Assembly (NCBI GenBank): GCA_019358895.1
Contig: JAHHIG010000031.1
Coordinates: 1 to 44,197 of the forward strand
Length of the DNA: 44,197 bases
From: Tildeniella nuda ZEHNDER 1965/U140
Lineage (GTDB): Bacteria > Cyanobacteriota > Cyanobacteriia > Leptolyngbyales > Leptolyngbyaceae
Reading direction: 5' to 3'
Part shown: piece by piece, positions 2,473 through 36,488 of the stretch
How positions within the stretch are numbered: position 1 is the stretch's first letter
How the letters are laid out: every line of letters begins with the position of its first letter
Position numbers and translations under genes: made by a program
The notes under the pieces: model-generated
Seen by the model: only the letters and a program-made list of their open reading frames with translations
The model's database searches: none
Told to the model about the DNA's origin: nothing

Positions 2473-3954
2473 CTATTTGCACACGACCCACGTATCTTTA
2501 CTGCCGCCACCTTGAGATGAGTTAACCACCAATGAGCCTGGACGCAACGCAACACGAGTTAGCCCCCCAGGGCTGACATAGACCTTTTTGCCATACAGAA
2601 TGTAGGGGCGCAGATCGACATGACGACCTTCAAAATGATCATTAATCAGCGTTGGCACTCGTGATAAAGAGAGCGTTGGCTGAGCAATGTAATTACGCGG
2701 TGAGGCTGCAATCCGTCCAGCAAAGTCTTCTCGCTGTTCTGGTGTGGCAGTAGGACCAATCAACATCCCATAACCACCTGACTCATCCGCCGCTTTAACC
2801 ACCAGTTTGTCCAGGTTTGTCAGCACATGCTGCTGCTGCTGCGGTTCCCAACAGAGATAGGTTGGCACGTTTGCCAAGATTGGTTCCTCATTGAGATAGT
2901 AGCGAATCATCGCTGGCACGTAGGAGTAAATCACCTTGTCGTCTGCGACACCTGTACCCAGAGCGTTTGCCAGTGCCACTTTGCCAGAACGGTACACATC
3001 CATCAAGCCGGGGATGCCCAGCAGCGAATCGGGGCGGAAGACTTTGGGGTCAATGAAAATATCGTCAATGCGGCGATAAACCACATCAACGCGCTTCAAG
3101 CCTTTGGTCGTTCGCATTTGCAGGTAGCCATCTGCCACAATCAGGTCGCGCCCTTCGACCAGTTCCACGCCCATCTGTTGAGCTAAAAAGGAATGCTCAA
3201 AGTAGGCAGAGTTGTAGATGCCAGGAGTCAGCACAACAACGGTTGGATCAATCAGGTGCGGTGGTGCAAGGTTCAGCAAAGTTTCCAGCAGGTGACTAGG
3301 ATATTCTTCCACAGGCTGAATCTGCATCGTGTTAAAGACGAGCGGAAACGTGCTTTTCATCACGCGGCGATTTTCGAGGACGTAAGAAACGCCGGATGGA
3401 CAGCGCAGATTGTCTTCTAAGACGTACCATTGCCCATCTCGATCGCGCACCAAATCAGTGCCCGTAATATGACACCAGATGCCGCCCGGTGGTTTCAACC
3501 CCATGCACGGCTTCAAAAAGCCACTGGCAGAGTAGATGATTTCAGACGGGATAATCTTGTCCCGCAAAATTTTCTGCTCGTTATAAATATCTGCCAGGAA
3601 CAAGTTGAGCGCGTAAATGCGCTGCTCCAAGCCCTTTTCCAGCGTTGCCCAGTCGTCTGCCGAAACAATGCGAGGAATAATATCGAAAGGAATAATGCGC
3701 TCTGTGCCCTGGTTATCGCTGTAGACGTTGAAGGTTACACCCATCTTAAAGAGTGCGATCTGCGCCGCCTGTTGCCGCCGCTGCACCTCTTCAGGCGAAA
3801 GGGAGTTGATGCGATCGATCAGCGGCATTGTGTCAGGACGAGGCTCTCCCTTCGCAGCAAAGAGTTCGTCGTAGAAATTCCCTGGCTCGTAATCGTCGAA
3901 TTGCACAGCGCTAGATCCAATGCATACCCCCTCATCAATAGAGGGGAGAGTCAC
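2473..3954 (-). CDS. Circularly permuted type 2 ATP-grasp protein
   Basis: 493 residues with the DUF404/DUF407 arrangement. An N-terminal lobe ([21 protein letters not shown]) is followed by a strongly conserved middle ([37 protein letters not shown]) and a C-terminal nucleotide-binding part ([32 protein letters not shown]). It probably forms peptide-like bonds with ATP, but the acceptor is unknown. It is the first gene of the group with alpha-E and transglutaminase. The start lies within a conserved-looking N-terminus, close to the next in-frame alternatives. Confidence 0.92.
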
Positions 3955-4622: not shown

Positions 4623-6173
<1,551 letters not shown>

Positions 6174-10553: not shown

Positions 10554-13500
10554 ATGCGTCAGAAAACGGTTCGCTTCATCCTCAACGTTGCACTGCTAGT
10601 CGTCTTCTCTACACCTCTGATAGTGACGCAGATAGCGATCGCTGCTCCTGCCCTCAGCCTGGATCTCCCGACCTTTCCGTTACCAACGGATGTACCGGAG
10701 CAAACTATGGTGCGAATTGACGGTGACAGCAGCATGTCGCTGATTAACCAACGCCTGAAAGAACAGTATCAGCGGGAGTTTCCTGGCACACAGGTGTCGA
10801 TCGAGGCTCAGGGCACCGATGCGGCTCTGCAATCCTTACTCAAGGACGAGATTGATTTAGCGGCGATCGGTCGGTCGCTCACCAGCGCTGAGAAAGCAAA
10901 AGGGTTAAGCGAAATTCCTCTCAGCCAGGAGCGCATTGCGGTTCTGGTCGGCAGCAACAATTCCTTTAAGGGCAATCTCACCGTTGATCAATTCGTCAAA
11001 ATGCTCCGGGGCGAGATTAGCGATTGGTCAGAAGTTGGCGGTGCGCCCGGTGCGATTCGGGTGATCGATCGCCCCCTCACCAGCGACACTCGCATTGCCC
11101 TCAGCCGCTACGGCATCTTTCAGCCAGAGGGCTTGACTATTGGAGCAAATGCTGTGCAGCTTGAGGAAGATGATACAGCATCAATGATCCGACAATTGGG
11201 CACGGACGGCATTGGGTATGCGATCGCCAGCCAGGTCGTTAACCAGAACAAAGCTCGCCTTGTCAAGCTGGTTGTCATGCACGAAGCGCTTCCCGATGAC
11301 CCACTTTACCCCTACGCTCAACCTCGCGGCTATGCCTACAAAAAAGCCCCTGACGTAGCAGCTAGTTCCTTCCTTGGTTTGGCAACCGCCGCCTCTGGAC
11401 AGGCAGCCGTTGCTGCCGCTAAGACAGCCGAAGCGACCGCTGTTGTAGATGCCTTTAAGCCTATACCCATGATTTCGGTCGTGCAGACAGCGGAACCAGA
11501 TACGTCGCCCTTTGCCCAAACGTTCAAGGCAATCCCTTGGTGGCTGCGGTTAGTGTTGCCTCTGGGCTTGCTGGGGCTACTGCTCCAGTGGGTGTTGAAG
11601 CGCTTTGAGCCACAGCCGTTGAGTCCTTCAACCCGTCCTTCTGACCCGATCGCCGATCGCCCAATCGCTCCCGTCGAGAATCGTCCCATAAGGGCGACTT
11701 TGGTGGCACCAACGGTTTCTACGCCAACAGAATCGGCACCATCAGCCGTCAACGCTGCTCAATCAACGGTTGAAGAACCAGTTCCAGACGCGCCAACATC
11801 AGACGAAACGCCAGCGCCAGCAGCAGTGCCAGCCTCGGAAGAGTCTGCTCTTAACCCAATAACCGCGATCGCGGCAGGAGCAGCGGCTATTGTCGGTCAG
11901 GTAACAGCTGCAACCCGTCGTCAGAATTATTGGACAGACGCTCAGCAAGTGTATGAGCATGGCATCGAACTGGTTGCTGCGGGGCAAGCTAGCACAGCTC
12001 TGGGTTGCTTTGATCGGGCGATCGAGCTGAATCCTAGTTTTGCCGCTGCCTGGATTGCGAAAGGCAACGCGCTGGTTAACTTGGGACAGCGTGATGAAGC
12101 AAAGAGCCATTTGGCACGGGCGGCTGAGTTGCAACCCGGTGATGAAGCCATTACCCAGCTTCTGGCAGAACTAGACGCGGAACCAGGCGTTGCTGCAACA
12201 GTCCCTACGCCCAAGATCGCTGAAGCAACGGCTGAACTGGCGGTCACTGAGTCGATTCTTGCTGATGAAACGCTCCCTGAAGCAGCCGATGAGTCAATCA
12301 ATCCTGGTCTAAATAGTGCTGAAGCAACAACAGTAGAGCTAATCATTGCGGAGACTGTTCCCGAACCGATCGCGGCTGAAGCGTTGCCGGATGCGATCGT
12401 GGCTGAACTCACGACGCTGGAAGAAACCATTGATGAGCCGCTTGTTGAAGCCACACTCTCTGAAGCAGCCAGCAAGGCGATCGCGCCTGACTCATCCGTC
12501 ACTCCCACCCCTTCTCAACCGTCTCCTCAGCCACTTGCAGCAGAGTCCCGCAGCCCAATCAGTGCAACTGCCAGCGTGATCCCCCTTGGGGATATTCGCG
12601 AAGGGTTCAGCGTCGAAGCCTTCACGCAAGCCTTCCGGGATAATTTGCTGCGCTTTCAAGGCAAGCCGTTGGAAGCGGCAACGCCTCAGGATTGCTACAC
12701 GGTGCTTGCTTACATGGTGCGCGATCGCCTGATGCAGTTTGAAACGCCAGAAGCATTTTTAACCCATCCAGACAGTCGTTGGATCGGCGAGGTGTCCGCT
12801 GAATACACACCGGGACCGCACTTGCAAAACAATTTGGTCAACCTGGGCAGTATTGACGTTGTGCGCCAGGGTATTGAGGGCTTGGGATTCAATCTTGATG
12901 AGATTTGCGATCAGGAAGCAGAACCGGGACTTGGCAAAGGTGGCTTAGGACGGTTGATGGTTTGCTACCTGGAGTCGTTGTCTACGCAGGCAATTCCGGC
13001 GATCGGCTACGGCATTCGCTACGAATACGGCATCTTCGACCAGGAAATCCGCGATGGGTGGCAGGTAGAAACACCCGACACCTGGCTGCAAGCAGGCAAC
13101 CCCTGGGAAGTTGAACGTCCTGACAGCATGGCAGAGGTGAAGTTTGGCGGACGCACCGAAGCGTCTCTGGATGAGGAAGGACGCTATCGAGTTCGTTGGG
13201 TGCCGCAAGAGGTGGTTAAAGGCATTCCCTATGACACGCCGATCTTGGGCTATCAGGTGAAAACGGTTAACCTGCTACGTCTGTGGCGGGCAGAAAGCGA
13301 CAGTCCGTTAGGCAAAGTGTTATATCCCGTCGATGTGGATTTTCAGGGACAGGAGTTGCGTCTGAAGCAACAATTCTTTTTAGTCTCCTGTGCGATGCAA
13401 GATGCAATACGCCTACATCTTGAAGCGGGCAGAGCGATCGAGACGCTCCACGAACGGGTTGCCCTACAGCTTAACGACACCGATACCACGCTGGCAGTCC

Positions 13501-15002
13501 CAGAATTAATGCGGTTGCTGGTCGATGAACACGGTCTTGAGTGGGAACAGGCGTGGGAGATTACACGCAACACGCTTTCGTACACGAATCATAGTCTGAT
13601 GCCCGAAACGTTGGACGATCGCTGGTCGATCGCCATCCTTGCAGCCATCCTGCCCCGGCACCTGGAAATCATCTTTGAAATCAACGCCCGCTTTCTCGCA
13701 GAAAGCAACATTCATGTTGGCGATGATGTTGATCACCTGCGTCGGTTGTCTCTGATTGACGAAACGGGCGATCGTCACGTCCGGCTAAACAATTTGGCGT
13801 ATGTAGGCACTCATGCCATCAACGGCGTTTCTGCCTTACACACTGAACTGCTGGAACAGACCGTTCTATCTGATTTCTATGCGCTGTATCCAGATAAATT
13901 TAGCAACAAGACCAACGGTATTTCGCCCCGACGCTTTTTGCTGCTGAGCAATCCTCGACTGGCAGCTTTGATCACTCGTCGTTTGGGCGATCGCTGGATC
14001 ACCCATTTGGATGAACTACACCCACTTGCAGCAGCCGCGGATGATGGAAATTTCCGGCAGGAGTGGCATCAGGTGAAACAAGCAACGAAGCAGGATCTGG
14101 CAGCGATCGTGTGTCAGCAGACAGGTATTGAGGTGGATGTTCACTCCCTATTTGATGTTCAGGCAATGGTGCTGCACGAATCTAAACGGCAACACTTGAA
14201 CGTTCTGCACATCCTGACGCTGTACAACCAAATTAAAGCCAATCCCGATTTGGATGTAGTGCCTCGCACCGTTATCTTCAGCGGCAAGGCAGCACCGGAC
14301 TATTTCACTGCCAAGCTCATTATTAAGTTGATTCATGCCGTTGCCGATCTGGTCAATGCCGATCCGGATGTGCGAGGACGGCTCAAAGTCGTCTTTTTGC
14401 CTGATTTCACCCTCAAGGCGGCTCAGCGGCTTTTGCCAGCAGCCGATCTCGCAGAGCATCTTTCTACCGCAGGCACAGAAGCATCAGACACAGGCAATAT
14501 GATGGCGGCGCTGAACGGTGGATTAATCATCGGCACACCGGATGGTTCCAACCTGGAGCTGTTTCAAGCGGTCGGTGCAGCAAACGCCTTCCAGTTTGGC
14601 TTAACGGTTACAGAGGCGGCAGTTTTGCGGGCAACAGGTTACAACCCCTGGGAGGTTTATCACGCCAACTCCAACTTGAAAGCAGCGATCGACCTGCTCA
14701 CTTCTGGCACGCTGTCTCACGGTGATACAGAGCTGTTTCAGCCGCTGGTGCATCTACTCTTATCCTCTGACTACTATCTGTTGCTGGCAGATTACCAGCC
14801 CTACATCGACTGTCAGGCGCAGGTGAGTCAAACCTACCGTGACTCGGATGCCTGGACGCGCAAGTCCATTCTCACAACCGCAAAAATGGGCAAGTTTTCG
14901 AGCGATCGTTCCATTCGCGAATACTGCCAAAACATCTGGAACGTAGAGCCAGTGAACGTCGAAATCGCCGATTATGTGCCGTCGAAAGCTGCTTTGATGT
15001 GA
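10554..15002 (+). CDS. PstS-like domain + TM + TPR + inactive-looking glycogen phosphorylase fusion
   Basis: 1482 residues in one frame. In order: signal/anchor (8-29); PstS/PBP-like domain (about 50-300; VRIDGDSSMSLINQRL, DLAAIGRSLTSAE); membrane helix (331-348, LRLVLPLGLLGLLLQWVL) ending in basic residues; Pro/Ala/Glu-rich linker; TPR pair (about 462-540; ALGCFDRAIELNPSFAAAW); a second acidic linker; a GT35 phosphorylase domain (680-1482). That domain is recognisable throughout (YGIRYEYGIF, GWQVETPDTWL, TNGISPRRFL, AGTEAS). The PLP lysine site normally reads GTGNMKF but here is DTGNMMA (Met1317). Other changes are GLGNGG to GLGKGG (Lys795), NDTHP to NDTDT (Asp977) and HEYKRQ to HESKRQ. It is probably not a working phosphorylase. 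The helix would place the PstS-like part outside and TPR/phosphorylase inside. Confidence 0.9.
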   Translation: MRQKTVRFILNVALLVVFSTPLIVTQIAIAAPALSLDLPTFPLPTDVPEQTMVRIDGDSSMSLINQRLKEQYQREFPGTQVSIEAQGTDAALQSLLKDEIDLAAIGRSLTSAEKAKGLSEIPLSQERIAVLVGSNNSFKGNLTVDQFVKMLRGEISDWSEVGGAPGAIRVIDRPLTSDTRIALSRYGIFQPEGLTIGANAVQLEEDDTASMIRQLGTDGIGYAIASQVVNQNKARLVKLVVMHEALPDDPLYPYAQPRGYAYKKAPDVAASSFLGLATAASGQAAVAAAKTAEATAVVDAFKPIPMISVVQTAEPDTSPFAQTFKAIPWWLRLVLPLGLLGLLLQWVLKRFEPQPLSPSTRPSDPIADRPIAPVENRPIRATLVAPTVSTPTESAPSAVNAAQSTVEEPVPDAPTSDETPAPAAVPASEESALNPITAIAAGAAAIVGQVTAATRRQNYWTDAQQVYEHGIELVAAGQASTALGCFDRAIELNPSFAAAWIAKGNALVNLGQRDEAKSHLARAAELQPGDEAITQLLAELDAEPGVAATVPTPKIAEATAELAVTESILADETLPEAADESINPGLNSAEATTVELIIAETVPEPIAAEALPDAIVAELTTLEETIDEPLVEATLSEAASKAIAPDSSVTPTPSQPSPQPLAAESRSPISATASVIPLGDIREGFSVEAFTQAFRDNLLRFQGKPLEAATPQDCYTVLAYMVRDRLMQFETPEAFLTHPDSRWIGEVSAEYTPGPHLQNNLVNLGSIDVVRQGIEGLGFNLDEICDQEAEPGLGKGGLGRLMVCYLESLSTQAIPAIGYGIRYEYGIFDQEIRDGWQVETPDTWLQAGNPWEVERPDSMAEVKFGGRTEASLDEEGRYRVRWVPQEVVKGIPYDTPILGYQVKTVNLLRLWRAESDSPLGKVLYPVDVDFQGQELRLKQQFFLVSCAMQDAIRLHLEAGRAIETLHERVALQLNDTDTTLAVPELMRLLVDEHGLEWEQAWEITRNTLSYTNHSLMPETLDDRWSIAILAAILPRHLEIIFEINARFLAESNIHVGDDVDHLRRLSLIDETGDRHVRLNNLAYVGTHAINGVSALHTELLEQTVLSDFYALYPDKFSNKTNGISPRRFLLLSNPRLAALITRRLGDRWITHLDELHPLAAAADDGNFRQEWHQVKQATKQDLAAIVCQQTGIEVDVHSLFDVQAMVLHESKRQHLNVLHILTLYNQIKANPDLDVVPRTVIFSGKAAPDYFTAKLIIKLIHAVADLVNADPDVRGRLKVVFLPDFTLKAAQRLLPAADLAEHLSTAGTEASDTGNMMAALNGGLIIGTPDGSNLELFQAVGAANAFQFGLTVTEAAVLRATGYNPWEVYHANSNLKAAIDLLTSGTLSHGDTELFQPLVHLLLSSDYYLLLADYQPYIDCQAQVSQTYRDSDAWTRKSILTTAKMGKFSSDRSIREYCQNIWNVEPVNVEIADYVPSKAALM

Positions 15003-15285: not shown

Positions 15286-16467
15286 ATGGCTAAGACTTTG
15301 CTAGAGCAACTTCGGGACATGACGATCGTCGTTGCCGATACAGGAGACATTCAGGCGATCGAAAAATTTACGCCCCGCGATGCCACGACTAACCCGTCGC
15401 TGATCACCGCTGCTGCCCAAATGCCCCAGTATCAGAGCATTGTGGATGAAACTCTACTCCAGGCAAAGAAAGATGCGGGCGCAGGAGCCACCGAAGCGCA
15501 GATTGTGTCCCTGGCGTTCGATCGACTGGCGGTATCCTTCGGCAAAAAGATTCTGGCAATTGTGCCCAAACGGGTGTCTACTGAAGTTGATGCGCGGCTC
15601 TCTTACGACACCGATGCCACGATCGCGAAAGGGCGTTATCTCATTGCCGAATACGAAAAAGCAGGCATTTCCCGCGATCGTGTGTTGATCAAAATCGCCT
15701 CGACTTGGGAAGGCATCAAAGCCGCTGAAGTGCTGGAGCAAGAAGGCATTCACTGCAATCTGACGCTGCTGTTTGGGCTGCATCAGGCGATCGCCTGTGC
15801 CGAAGCCAAAGCCACCCTCATTTCTCCCTTTGTCGGACGGATTCTCGACTGGTACAAAAAAGATACGGGCAAAGACTACGCTGCTACCGAAGATCCAGGC
15901 GTGCTCTCTGTGACCACTATCTACAATTACTATAAAAAGTTTGGCTACAAAACCGAAGTCATGGGAGCCAGCTTCCGCAGTCTTGGCGAAATCACCGAAT
16001 TAGCAGGTTGTGATCTGCTGACCATTTCTCCAAACTTGTTAGCACAGTTGCAGGAAACCATCGCAGACCTGCCCCGCAAGCTTGATCCCGCTCAGGCAGC
16101 CGCTTTATCCATCGAAAAAATCTCAATAGATAAAGCCACCTTTGACCAGATGCACGCCGCCGATCGCATGGCAACCGAGAAGCTTGACGAAGGCATCAAA
16201 GGCTTTAGCAAAGCACTCGAAAGCCTGGAAGGACTGCTTGCCAAGCGATTGGCTTCTCTTGCTGGCACCACAGTGGTTAGTGAAGCAGCCGATCACATTT
16301 TTCATGCCTATGACTTAGACGGCGACGGGTTTATCACCCGCGAAGAATGGATGGGCGCTGATGTTGTTTTTGATGCTCTGGACGCTGACCATGACGGCAA
16401 AATCACTCCCGCCGAGATGAGCGCAGGGCTAGGAGCAGTGCTGCCACTCGCAACCGTTTCAGCATGA
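15286..16467 (+). CDS. tal: Transaldolase with C-terminal EF-hand pair
   Basis: 393 residues, preceded by a strong AAAGGAGA ribosome site. The barrel begins [17 protein letters not shown] and has [11 protein letters not shown], with the Schiff-base lysine in [11 protein letters not shown] (Lys136). It transfers a dihydroxyacetone unit in the pentose phosphate pathway. The C-terminus carries two EF-hand loops, [12 protein letters not shown] (343-354) and [12 protein letters not shown] (366-377), both with full acidic ligand sets. Transaldolases with such an extension are known in cyanobacteria and suggest calcium binding. It follows the fusion gene by 283 bp containing heptamer repeats and is probably separately transcribed. 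Confidence 0.95.
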
Positions 16468-26821: not shown

Positions 26822-28657
26822 TTATTTTACTTGAAGCTTCTGAAGCTTATTCTGTACGTTACTCATATCTGATGCCATACTTTGCATACCGTAATACTTG
26901 ATTGCACTCTGATAATCTTCGATGGCAACTTGCTTATTAGAAAGAGCATTGTGGGCATCACCTCTCCATTCATAGGCTTTTGCTAGCAAAGTATTGTCCG
27001 TTGAGAAATTGATTGCTGCCGTGTAATCCTGAATGGCATGTTGTCTATCACTAGAACTTAAATAAGCATTACCGCGAAGTAGATATAGTTCAGGGTCTTC
27101 AGTTTCGGGTCGAGCAAGCTTGATTGCCTGACTAAACTCATCGATTGCCCTCTGATAATAATTTCGAGCAATATTTGGGTTACTTTTATACCCTATCTCA
27201 TACTGATCGATACCGTTCCGCTTATGAACTCTCATTTGGCTTTGAATGATAGAAGATCCACTGGGAGCTAGAGAAGGCGAAACGGGGATCGAGTCGCTTA
27301 TGTTTGGGAAAGGGGTGGTCGAGGACGGAAAACTTTCGGCTGAATCGATACTGTTTACAGTAGATTCTTGCCTGAATTGAAATATTTGCACTAAATAAAC
27401 AGAAGTACCGAACGCTAAAACAGCAAAAAATACATAGGTTAGTATAGTAGGAAACTTGAACTGCATTAAATTCTGAATGGTCTGCATTCTTAAATAAGGA
27501 AAACCGTTGATTCGTTTTGAGACACGCTGTTCAGCAGCACTAGCGTGCTCATCTGGAATGTGCAGAGCGTGTTGTAATTCTTTCAATGCTCTGCGAGTGG
27601 AATCCTTCAGGGGCTTCTCGCGCTTTAAATAGTTAATCAATTCTTGTTCGTAGCTTTCCAGTCTTTTATAAAAATCTCGATAAGGCTGGAGTGACTCCGA
27701 TTCTAAATTGCGAATAACTTCTGGCGAGAGTCCTAATTTTTGAGAAAATGCATTCAACATTTTGCGTCGCGTAGAAGACATACGAACGTCATCTTGAAGG
27801 GGCATACTCAACCAAGCTTGTATGCTATCAATAACAGTTCGATGGGCAAAAGTAATGTCGCCCAAATAAGCCAGTCGTTCAATTTCTCGACGGTAGCGCA
27901 AGGCTGGATCGGTTGACGGAACATGCGCCAATTTAATGTTGTACCCCTCCTTTGAGGGATAAATTTCAGGTTTCATCCCTGGCACAACTTCTTGAACTTT
28001 GCGTTTAGCATATTCATGCAACTCACCGATGGCAATAAAACCATCACGGTCTTGATCTGCGTCACCCGTTTCTAATCCTTCTATTAGGTAGCGAGTGTAG
28101 ACAGAGAGTTCTGAGTCGTGTAGCTCAAATGAATACTCGATCGAGGATGAAGATGTAAGCACTGCTCCGCCTTCACTTCCCAGTTGAGACCTAAGATCAA
28201 CTGAGCCATCGTCTTTCGCCAGCATTCCTTCAGCAAAAGCACCACTAAAACAGCAATCAAGAATAATTACCTGTCGTCTCGAACGACTATTTTTCTGATT
28301 TTCCTGTACGAAGCTAGCGGATGTAGCTGTTGGACGCACCAACTCTCCACGAGCAGTTTTACGTGTTTTGCAGCTAGAGAGATAGAACTTGCCAGCACTG
28401 TCTTTGATGCCATGCCCAGAGAAGAAAAGCAGTACTAAATCATCCCGGTGTCGATCGTCGAAGAGAGCCTGAATTTCCTCTTCCATCTCTTGGCGCTCAG
28501 GATTCTTTAGCACTTTGATGTCTGACTCAGCAAAGGCACCCATTTCAGGATGCTGCAAAACCCGTTGCATTGCCTCGACATCTTTGAGCGCCCCAGGCAA
28601 AGAATTTAATCCAGGTGCGTACTCACTGATCCCAATTAGTAGTGCGATCTTTGCCAT
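26822..28657 (-). CDS. Caspase-family (metacaspase-like) membrane protein with TPRs
   Basis: 611 residues. Caspase p20 fold with His82 in LFFSGHGIKD and Cys136 in ILDCCFSGA; a calcium-binding-like loop DADQDRDGFIAIGEL (about 199-213); a helical region (250-390); one membrane helix (about 402-426, PTILTYVFFAVLAFGTSVYL); a Ser/Pro-rich spacer; and two or three TPR-like repeats (480-600; YYQRAIDEFSQAIKLARP, HAIQDYTAAINFST). Such orthocaspases cleave after basic residues. It is six bases downstream of a small acidic gene (28664-28834) and must be co-translated with it. Filamentous cyanobacteria are rich in such proteins. Confidence 0.92.
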   Translation of the reverse strand: MAKIALLIGISEYAPGLNSLPGALKDVEAMQRVLQHPEMGAFAESDIKVLKNPERQEMEEEIQALFDDRHRDDLVLLFFSGHGIKDSAGKFYLSSCKTRKTARGELVRPTATSASFVQENQKNSRSRRQVIILDCCFSGAFAEGMLAKDDGSVDLRSQLGSEGGAVLTSSSSIEYSFELHDSELSVYTRYLIEGLETGDADQDRDGFIAIGELHEYAKRKVQEVVPGMKPEIYPSKEGYNIKLAHVPSTDPALRYRREIERLAYLGDITFAHRTVIDSIQAWLSMPLQDDVRMSSTRRKMLNAFSQKLGLSPEVIRNLESESLQPYRDFYKRLESYEQELINYLKREKPLKDSTRRALKELQHALHIPDEHASAAEQRVSKRINGFPYLRMQTIQNLMQFKFPTILTYVFFAVLAFGTSVYLVQIFQFRQESTVNSIDSAESFPSSTTPFPNISDSIPVSPSLAPSGSSIIQSQMRVHKRNGIDQYEIGYKSNPNIARNYYQRAIDEFSQAIKLARPETEDPELYLLRGNAYLSSSDRQHAIQDYTAAINFSTDNTLLAKAYEWRGDAHNALSNKQVAIEDYQSAIKYYGMQSMASDMSNVQNKLQKLQVK

Positions 28658-35203: not shown

Positions 35204-36292
35204 CTACGCCGTCACCGCAGGTTCTAGCCCTAATTCTGCTATCAGCCGATCGGCATCGAAATTTTCTGCCATTGAGTTGCAGATGTACTCAACTTTGACG
35301 GGTTCGTTGACGCGGACTTGACCAAAGGCGCGATCGACGATGGCAACGGTTGATAGTGTGTCTAAATCCACAGAGAGAATGGGGATTTCCAGATCATCAG
35401 CACGGCTGAGAATATCGGGAGAAGGGGGCATCTGTCCCGTCAGAATCAAGCATTGCGTTGACGTTTCCAGGGCAGCCAGTTGAATATCGGTGCGATCGCC
35501 GCCCGTTACCACTGCCATGTTGCGACCTTTGCGGAAATACTTCAGCGCTGAGTTGACGTTCATTGCGCCGATGCTGAGGCTTTCGACCATCAAATCCAGG
35601 CGATCGGGGCGGCAGAGTACTTCTGCTTTCAGTTGTTTCACCAGTTCGTTCACGCTGACGCTGCGTAAAAGCGCACTGCGGGCGAGTAAGCCAAAAATCG
35701 GAATGCCCCGTTTCTCCAGATAAGGCTGCACCGTCGTTTTGACTTCCTCTAGCCGTTCTTCGGGAATGTCATTGATCAGAACACCCAGGAGGCGATCGCC
35801 CAAGCGTCGTCGTGCCGAAATCAGCGCGCCCACAATCAGCAATGAGTTGAAGCGTGCCACCAGCAGAATCCTGGCATTCACGCCTTCTGCGACCTGCCGC
35901 AATGAGAGGTCAAACAAACTTCCTTCTTCTAGGTTGGCTGGACCTTCTAGCAGCACCAGATCAGGACCGCGCATTTGGAGATATTTTTTGAGCGCCTGGG
36001 GATAATCGATGCGATCGTCACCCAGAATGCGTTTTTGAATCGTTGGTTCATCCAATGCCAGGATCGTGGGCTGGAGGCGATCGGCGGGTAGGTGCAACAC
36101 CTTGCCCACAAACTGCACGTCTTCTTCAACATCAGTCGTTTCTGAGCCACTCCAGCAGGTTCCGAGGGGCTTCCCGTAGGCGAGATCCAGACCTTTCGCT
36201 TTCAACTGGTGAGCAATGCCAAGCACCGTTGCCGACTTCCCACTGTAAGCTTCGGTCGATCCAACTAACAAATATCTCGCGGTTTTCGGCAC
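35204..36292 (-). CDS. BioD-like P-loop / DRTGG domain protein (phosphotransacetylase family)
   Basis: 362 residues from GTG at 36292, chosen because GGGAG lies about nine bases before it and PKTARYLLVGSTEAYSGKSA is the family start; 29 further codons are open upstream. The P-loop-like STEAYSGKSAT, DLVLLEGPANLEEG and ILLVARF mark a dethiobiotin-synthetase-like domain. The DRTGG domain (about 205-320) includes AVVTGGDRTDIQLAALET. Such proteins equal the N-terminal regulatory part of long phosphotransacetylases but lack the catalytic domain. Role unknown; acetyl-phosphate sensing is conceivable. Confidence 0.88.
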   Translation of the reverse strand: MPKTARYLLVGSTEAYSGKSATVLGIAHQLKAKGLDLAYGKPLGTCWSGSETTDVEEDVQFVGKVLHLPADRLQPTILALDEPTIQKRILGDDRIDYPQALKKYLQMRGPDLVLLEGPANLEEGSLFDLSLRQVAEGVNARILLVARFNSLLIVGALISARRRLGDRLLGVLINDIPEERLEEVKTTVQPYLEKRGIPIFGLLARSALLRSVSVNELVKQLKAEVLCRPDRLDLMVESLSIGAMNVNSALKYFRKGRNMAVVTGGDRTDIQLAALETSTQCLILTGQMPPSPDILSRADDLEIPILSVDLDTLSTVAIVDRAFGQVRVNEPVKVEYICNSMAENFDADRLIAELGLEPAVTA

Positions 36293-36488
36293 GCTTTCAC
36301 TCCCTACAATGACCTCTACTGCTGCCCTTGCGCGTCGATCGACAAGGCAATGGATCAACTTTGATCGACTGCACTGCATTAAGCAGCTCGTCCTCTCATT
36401 GACGCATAGTCACCATTGTAAGTGATGCTCTTCATGGCAAACGTTTGTCAAGGCAGAGAGACGGCTGGACTTAGCGCGGTTGCAAATT
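36293..36488. other. Spacer between DRTGG gene and element 4
   Basis: Should contain the promoter of the DRTGG gene (minus strand). No gene is supported. Confidence 0.35.

Follow-up and report, generated by a model that had tools for sequence, protein, structure and literature searches.

Cyanobacterial glycogen phosphorylase (GlgP) belongs to GT35, a textbook enzyme family for which we found no described pseudo-enzyme branch in the open-licence PubMed Central (PMC) literature. Sll0540 and PstS share the PBP_like_2 fold, and BvgS is a single-pass receptor with a Venus-flytrap domain outside the membrane. We identified in a 44,197-nucleotide stretch of Tildeniella nuda ZEHNDER 1965/U140 (the window; contig JAHHIG010000031.1 of genome G000) a gene that joins a periplasmic-binding-protein-like (PBP) domain, a membrane helix and a GT35 domain. 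The fusion protein resembles the solved cyanobacterial GlgP (9wvu) and the organism's own GlgP (G000:C34) in its full GT35 fold. Unlike them, it has no lysine for pyridoxal 5'-phosphate (PLP), no Lys568 and no segment of the kind we take to be the "tower", carries Asp in place of His377 and Gly612, and is joined to a PBP domain and membrane helix; the numbers used for these sites (K680, H377, K568, R569, G612, N133, N484 and E672) are those of the rabbit-muscle enzyme. It shares the PBP_like_2 fold with Sll0540 and PstS but differs from both in an SDT loop, a membrane anchor, a large cytoplasmic part and a score below the PstS cut-off. A PBP-like domain outside and an effector inside would also be the plan of BvgS-type receptors, yet the fusion has no kinase or known signalling domain. 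PBP-membrane-DUF4912 proteins have a PBP of the same group and a similar membrane segment, and their gene is the next but one in seven fusion genomes; their inside part, however, consists of one to three DUF4912 domains, often with the domain of a small open reading frame (ORF), and not of GT35. PBP-Acs fusions of family f11 carry the same PBP module on a metabolic enzyme and differ in that enzyme, an acetyl-CoA synthetase (Acs) above its curated cut-off. The open-licence PMC literature yielded no description of PBP-membrane-DUF4912 proteins and nothing on point for the fusion, GT35 pseudo-enzymes, DUF4912 or the Acs fusion, which is weak evidence of absence. We lean slightly toward reading the protein as a member of a modular single-pass receptor or scaffold family, in which the dead phosphorylase is a binding module that docks or reports glycogen.

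A phosphorylase fold in a membrane protein

The gene is one frame of 1482 codons without interruption (Table 1). Pfam matched PBP_like_2 (PF12849) at 85 bits and, over the whole protein, Phosphorylase (PF00343) at 933 bits, a score that makes a chance match impossible. The NCBIfam phosphorylase model TIGR02093 covers residues 687-1464 at 965 bits, well above its cut-off of 552.9. By sequence, the C-terminal part is closest among solved structures to GlgP (9wvu) and the N-terminal part to Sll0540 (9l8j), the latter matching at E 1.2e-50. Hydropathy marked hydrophobic segments at residues 12-30 and 326-344, the second followed by K/R. The receptor layout of signal sequence, outside domain, one helix and inside domain is read from hydropathy and charge only; it places the PBP domain very probably outside and the GT35 domain inside the membrane. 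A preliminary description of the window had already proposed the single frame and its domains, including a PstS-like N-terminal part, and the Pfam, NCBIfam and Sll0540 matches uphold both the domains and their PBP-like beginning. Its membrane helix at residues 331-348 is close enough to ours, and its Lys795, Asp977 and Met1317 are the residues that we find. A separate glgP, which it left to be sought, is also present: the genome has one other GT35 gene, a normal glgP of 845 residues on contig 34, whose product is 59% identical to the GT35 part of the fusion. The closest named relative of the fusion is a contig of the Leptolyngbya sp. ES-bin-22 metagenome assembly (77% identity over residues 337-1480).

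The whole protein served as query in 39 genomes and its PBP part in 42 genomes of the family; 388 genomes of the class were surveyed with the PBP part and also with a profile built from seven pseudo-GT35 domains. Genome counts are lower bounds because the class surveys scored a limited number of candidates per genome (up to five with the PBP part, two with the pseudo-GT35 profile and 11 with a profile of ten PBP modules). At least 16 of the 388 class genomes contain the PBP-membrane-GT35 layout, or a GT35 half abutting a contig end; they come from two families, f1 (G000, G004, G021, G022 and G040) and f24 (G064, G239, G245, G156, G279, G215, G209, G113, G124, G294 and G168, the last missed by the pseudo-GT35 profile and surfacing in the PBP-module survey). 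The fusion is one open frame in 11 of them (G000, G022, G064, G239, G245, G156, G215, G209, G113, G124 and G168). Elsewhere it meets a contig break with overlapping ends (G004), is split by contig ends beside a broken small ORF (G021), has a broken frame (G040) or shows its GT35 half with the PBP part beyond the contig end (G279 and G294). Two GT35 matches were recorded in 12 of the 14 genomes with a scored fusion, and one each in G124 and G294. An assembly chimera is ruled out by the fused orthologs in other genomes; separate homologous genes or a join at the linker, which the preliminary description had considered, are likewise at odds with these open frames.

Loss of catalytic residues and maintenance of the domain

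The catalytic region is covered by 15 fusion copies, all except that of G021. None has the PLP lysine, the position being Ile in 11, Met in three and Ala in one; a sequencing error at this site is thereby ruled out. Lys568, the first Lys of the KRIHEYKRQ motif, is gone from all 15, Arg569 is retained only in G215 and G209, and the second Lys, Lys574, is retained in 13. The lysines of this motif are the probable counterparts of phosphate-holding lysines of MalP. In MalP, PLP is bound to lysine K646, and K534, K540 and K554 hold its phosphate, as stated in one review (PMC11046441). Normal GlgPs carry FNxGDYxxAVxxK where the fusion has a deletion of about 24 residues, and at most two of the 17 positions of this tower-like segment are left in any of the 15 copies. 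Among the residues that we take to be sugar contacts, Asn484 is kept in 14 of 14 fusions and Glu672 (Glu1309 in the fusion) in 14 of 14 and also in G168. These comparisons confirm the loss of the PLP lysine and of the NDTH His reported in the preliminary description and extend it to Lys568-Arg569, Gly612 and the tower segment; the lysine was recovered in none of the 15 fusion copies.

A set of 13 fusion rows, which excludes G168, G040 and G021, was compared with 34 rows of normal GlgPs. Of 255 positions invariant in the normal rows (at most one exception), 141 are retained and 20 are lost in all 13 fusions. A regular expression that demanded GT.NMK picked out 23 of the normal rows, whose lysine is therefore a matter of selection; the lysine is also kept in the 11 rows chosen otherwise (the organism's own glgP, G032, G009, G013, G036b, G044, G054, Shewanella, Acidobacteriaceae, Actinoplanes and Bacillus) and in the partial row of G003. 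Six residues, Glu854, Asp977, Ser1014, Asp1021, Ser1093 and Asp1249, occur in every one of the 13 fusions and in none of the 34 normal rows. From these substitutions, phosphorolysis has almost certainly been lost. As far as sequence can tell, the domain is a pseudo-enzyme: a homolog of an enzyme, with catalytic residues lost and a sequence still constrained.

The same residues allow another interpretation, which we consider unlikely: the cleft may have been rebuilt with Asp977, Asp1249 and Glu1309 as a PLP-free site for some other reaction on a glucan or sugar phosphate. Two of the six foreign residues are acidic and lie in cleft motifs, Glu1309 is kept as described above, and purifying selection is strong. 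However, the former lysine position (M, I or A) and position G675 (D, G, A or S) vary among the fusions, unlike a new catalytic center.

In a maximum-likelihood tree of 46 rows, from which four partial fusion rows, G003 and two repeats of G009 were left out and which did not include G168, the 13 fusion GT35 domains form one clade (support 100/100). The clade sits among GlgPs (91/97) that are all cyanobacterial except for one Acidobacteriaceae row, its exact sister being unresolved. Using our own Nei-Gojobori script, we obtained ratios of nonsynonymous to synonymous substitution (dN/dS) for the GT35 part of 0.095 (G000/G004), 0.111 (G064/G239), 0.119 (G156/G279) and 0.103 (G113/G124), compared with 0.104 for ackA of G000/G004, 0.14 and 0.17 for PBP parts and 0.32 for the fast-evolving TPR/linker region. 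An AlphaFold2 model of the GT35 part from a ten-row alignment had a mean pLDDT of 83.5 and a pTM of 0.84, and superposed on 9wvu with a TM score of 0.95 and a root mean square deviation of 1.9; eight of the ten rows were other GlgPs, which favours a normal fold. The model makes it likely that the GT35 fold has been kept, as the preliminary description held. Tree and substitution ratios together indicate that this is an ancient, maintained pseudo-phosphorylase with one origin, under purifying selection. A relaxed pseudogene is ruled out by dN/dS of about 0.1. More broadly, decay or artefact could be suspected from the interrupted gene of G040, the split gene and broken small ORF of G021 and the lost domain of G044 (see below), but 11 open frames, a single clade, the low dN/dS and substitutions common to all copies already refute this explanation for the fusion branch as a whole.

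GT35 pseudo-enzymes are not confined to the fusion clade. Genome G036 encodes an independent, stand-alone one near a normal glgP (L041:5822-8344, + strand), outside that clade, in which the PLP lysine is Cys and KRIHEYKRQ reads EPFEGCRRQ; the tower segment is kept.

The outside domain and its module family

We aligned 25 modular PBPs (13 of fusions, one of a fusion remnant in G044, three of Acs types and eight of DUF4912 types) using Sll0540, 4q8r and the two true PstS proteins found in G124 as reference rows. Two sites were compared that we take to contact phosphate, the R..SGT loop and, in the SSR motif, the Ser that precedes Arg. The loop reads SDT in 23 of the 25; the fusions of G209 and G124 have SET and SDA, respectively. 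Gly replaces the Ser in 21, the exceptions being Ala (G064 and G239), Ser (G209) and an unaligned site (G124). The fusion of T. nuda has SDT and IGR, and SGT and SR are retained in the four reference proteins. A negatively charged residue in the oxyanion loop makes phosphate a less likely ligand. The PstS model TIGR02136 scores the fusion at 64.4 bits, below its cut-off of 206.6.

These results tell against the phosphate receptor coupled to the glycogen state that the preliminary description proposed, and we now consider it improbable. Its support comes from Sll0540 as the closest solved relative, for a Nodularia relative of that protein is listed as a potential high-affinity phosphate-binding protein in one study (PMC3610870), and from two true PstS genes above the curated cut-off that adjoin the G124 fusion directly downstream (L151:12261-13328, - strand; 13754-14797, + strand). 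Opposed to it are the sub-cut-off score, the change of SGT to SDT and of SSR to mostly GR across the group, the loss of Lys568 on the phosphorylase side in all 15 fusions, and the scan of neighbouring proteins of the window (a subset of its ORFs), in which no pst gene appeared.

The modular receptor or scaffold that we favour has many possible siblings. The profile of ten PBP modules matched at least 74 of 194 class genomes at E 1e-70, and 40 loci were taken from this list, mostly for long frames. By blastp, 30 contain DUF4912 and one, L171 (the G168 fusion), contains GT35; nine have neither. Pfam on five of these nine assigned WD40 plus TPRs to two, TPRs to one (which also has the small-ORF domain by blastp), a coiled coil plus helix-hairpin-helix (HHH) to one, and no second domain to the last; the remaining four have TPRs by blastp. 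The membrane segment of the WD40-type proteins is located after the WD40 part. L173, L175, L176, L177, L181 and L183 are PBP proteins with TPRs of family f13 and related ones, with WD40 plus TPRs by Pfam in L173 and L176, and L179:731-5809 (+ strand, G064) encodes a 1693-residue PBP-membrane protein in which HHH domains accompany a long coiled coil. DUF4912 itself matched in the PDB only two designed proteins and, weakly, 1wj3 (E 0.27). In family f11, the PBP module and a complete Acs form one frame in three of the six genomes searched and split frames in a fourth, and a second PBP gene lies just upstream of the fusion in L153 and L154. The one PBP-Acs fusion tested scored 999 bits versus a curated AcsA cut-off of 725; thus, its enzyme is probably active. 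Because the PBP module is fused to so many domains, it looks like a general membrane adaptor, with the dead phosphorylase as one head. All 13 fusion PBPs and all three Acs types have a further hydrophobic segment after the PBP. Four of the eight DUF4912 types have one within the first 480 residues at the threshold of 1.6, and a second look added one more at 1.6 and another at 1.53.

Such siblings also fit a pure anchor or scaffold without ligand sensing, in which the PBP would stick to the envelope and the inside part gather proteins. Several bear protein-binding repeats (TPR, WD40 plus TPR, coiled coil), although most of those sampled bear DUF4912, a domain of unknown function. Some fusions showed no TPRs, and the linkers evolve quickly. 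The PBP core is, however, well conserved at the dN/dS given above, its altered ligand loop included, which suggests that the ligand matters and leaves an anchor without sensing rather unlikely.

Table 1. Positions of the fusion gene, its parts and altered sites in the window, and loci of the PBP-Acs fusions.
Feature	Position	Strand	Basis or occurrence
Complete fusion gene, 1482 aa	10554..15002	+	
Signal sequence, residues 1-30, AxA end (putative cleavage)	10554..10643	+	hydropathy
PBP_like_2 domain, residues 50-274; closest solved relative Sll0540 (9l8j)	10701..11375	+	
Membrane helix, residues 326-344, K/R after helix (C-terminus predicted cytoplasmic)	11529..11585	+	hydropathy/charge
TPR pair, residues 467-540, low-complexity linkers on both sides	11952..12173	+	Pfam
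GT35 phosphorylase-fold domain, residues 687-1464	12612..14945	+	Pfam, NCBIfam, predicted model
Lys795 replacing Asn133 (GLGNGG to GLGKGG)	12936..12938	+	K, R or C in 16/16 fusions showing the site
Junction of ~24-residue deletion (tower segment of normal GlgP)	13296..13301	+	deleted in 15/15 fusions showing the site
Asp977 replacing His377 (NDTHP His)	13482..13484	+	Asp in 15/15 fusions
Met1205-Val1206 replacing Lys568-Arg569 (KR of QAKRIHEYKRQ)	14166..14171	+	
Asp1249 replacing Gly612 (GKAAPG to GKAAPD)	14298..14300	+	Asp in 15/15 fusions
Met1317 at PLP lysine position	14502..14504	+	Lys in 0/15 fusions
PBP-Acs fusion, family f11	L098:380-4567	-	
PBP-Acs fusion, family f11	L153:9138-13340	+	
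PBP-Acs fusion, family f11	L154:9299-13087	+	
PBP-Acs fusion, family f11	L143/L144		

Gene neighbourhood and possible role

The recurrent partner of the fusion is a small ORF together with a PBP-DUF4912 gene. The ORF (131-218 codons) lies directly 3' of the fusion in G022, G040, G064, G239, G215, G209, G245, G156 and G168, is cut by the contig end in G279 and is present as a broken copy in G021; its domain also forms the C-terminal end of many PBP-DUF4912 proteins. A lectin of the LecA/PA-IL type was dropped as a candidate for it (nothing relevant in Pfam at E 0.5 or in PDB profile searches). The PBP-DUF4912 gene follows the small ORF in seven genomes (G022, G040, G021, G064, G239, G215 and G209), and in G168 a PBP gene follows whose C-terminal part is outside the stretch examined; no PBP-DUF4912 gene was found in the stretches examined around the G245 and G156 fusions. 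Genome G044 has the PBP and membrane helix of the fusion branch (71% identity), the last residues of which match those of the small ORF, with a PBP-DUF4912 gene next and phosphoketolase, an EF-hand protein, D-2-hydroxyacid dehydrogenase and normal glgP in the surroundings. An M16-type peptidase gene and a fructosamine-kinase-like gene, both named by eye, lie near the cluster in G040 of family f1 (L077:981-2333 and 2782-3693, both +) and G156 of family f24 (L108:10150-11445 and 11453-12340, both +); the pairs are 62% and 60% identical, hinting at a shared locus ancestry across families.

Transaldolase (Tal) and acetate kinase (AckA), which follow the T. nuda gene and had been offered as a clue to its function, do not hold up as one. 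Among the neighbourhoods compared, both are beside the fusion only in G000, with AckA also in G004. A conserved Tal/AckA/Xfp link was rejected, such or related genes being found only at G000, G004, the G044 remnant and G064, where a debranching-enzyme-like gene lies 1.7 kb from the PBP-DUF4912 gene. In blastp searches for Tal, AckA, Xfp, GlgP, debranching enzyme, LdhD and Gpm in the stretches examined around the fusions of G215, G209, G113, G124, G022, G040 and G156, nothing was found except the fusion. The Xfp and GlgP loci of G000 are on contigs other than that of the fusion, and no PBP-type ORF was found in 16 kb around the Xfp locus or around the GlgP locus. The transaldolase in the window (15286-16467, +) has C-terminal EF-hands, and an EF-hand protein is also encoded beside the G044 PBP gene. 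The window further encodes HetR (5262-6173, +; NCBIfam equivalog above cut-off), a caspase-domain (Peptidase_C14) protein with TPRs (26822-28657, -) and, about 17 kb from ackA, an AAA_26 plus DRTGG protein (35204-36379, -) that resembles the N-terminal part of phosphotransacetylase.

In the modular family proposed at the outset, a binding domain of the Sll0540/PstS type would face outward, and a single membrane helix would connect it to an inside domain that can be exchanged. The GT35 fold of the fusion, no longer capable of phosphorolysis, would still bind at or near its cleft, most probably to an alpha-glucan chain, a sugar phosphate or a protein partner. With the outside domain in control, the fusion would in this way tether glycogen or its enzymes to the membrane or signal their state; the PBP part may supply ligand control or envelope anchoring. 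The confidence differs among these parts. Chances seem evenly balanced that the GT35 part binds glucan or sugar phosphate, with the fold and a few retained residues as the basis for glucan binding, and ligand-driven signaling is a possibility to which we give somewhat less than even weight. More tentative still is a receptor class in which an altered-site Sll0540-like domain, one helix and exchangeable modules are combined and the dead GlgP acts as a glucan or sugar-phosphate sensor coupling the envelope to carbon storage. The outside ligand, glucan binding inside and signal transfer between the two are guesses. From the preliminary description, the real fusion, the pseudo-enzyme and, probably, its use as a cytoplasmic ligand- or protein-binding module stand; the phosphate receptor and the Tal/AckA clue do not.

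Several observations weigh against the modular receptor or scaffold. The loop changes in the PBP argue against phosphate, and the tower loss with the changes at Asn133, His377 and Gly612 could mean that glucan binding has been lost as well. The tower deletion alone is no proof of lost function, because the normal Bacillus row also lacks part of this segment (10 of 17 positions present). The membrane segment is less clear in the siblings, several DUF4912 types being missed at the threshold, and Acs types have mainly acidic residues, not K/R, after theirs. G044 seems, from its sequence, to have deleted the GT35 part while keeping the PBP and membrane helix. The PBP part of the G124 fusion is truncated, and the small ORF and PBP-DUF4912 gene are absent beside the fusion in G113, G124, G294 (where about 1.5 kb downstream was covered), G000 and G004; thus, neither an intact PBP nor the partner genes seem indispensable.

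The fusion is also a trap for annotation, since it passes a curated phosphorylase model yet, by these data, cannot be a phosphorylase of the known kind. Some cyanobacteria preserve this enzyme fold without its catalytic residues, suggesting reuse as a sensor or docking part. The PBP-membrane family, with acetyl-CoA synthetase among its inside domains, suggests an uncharacterised wiring of metabolic folds to the membrane, and a conserved dead GT35 domain on the inner side of a PBP-type membrane protein would offer a direct handle on the link between envelope and glycogen in cyanobacteria.

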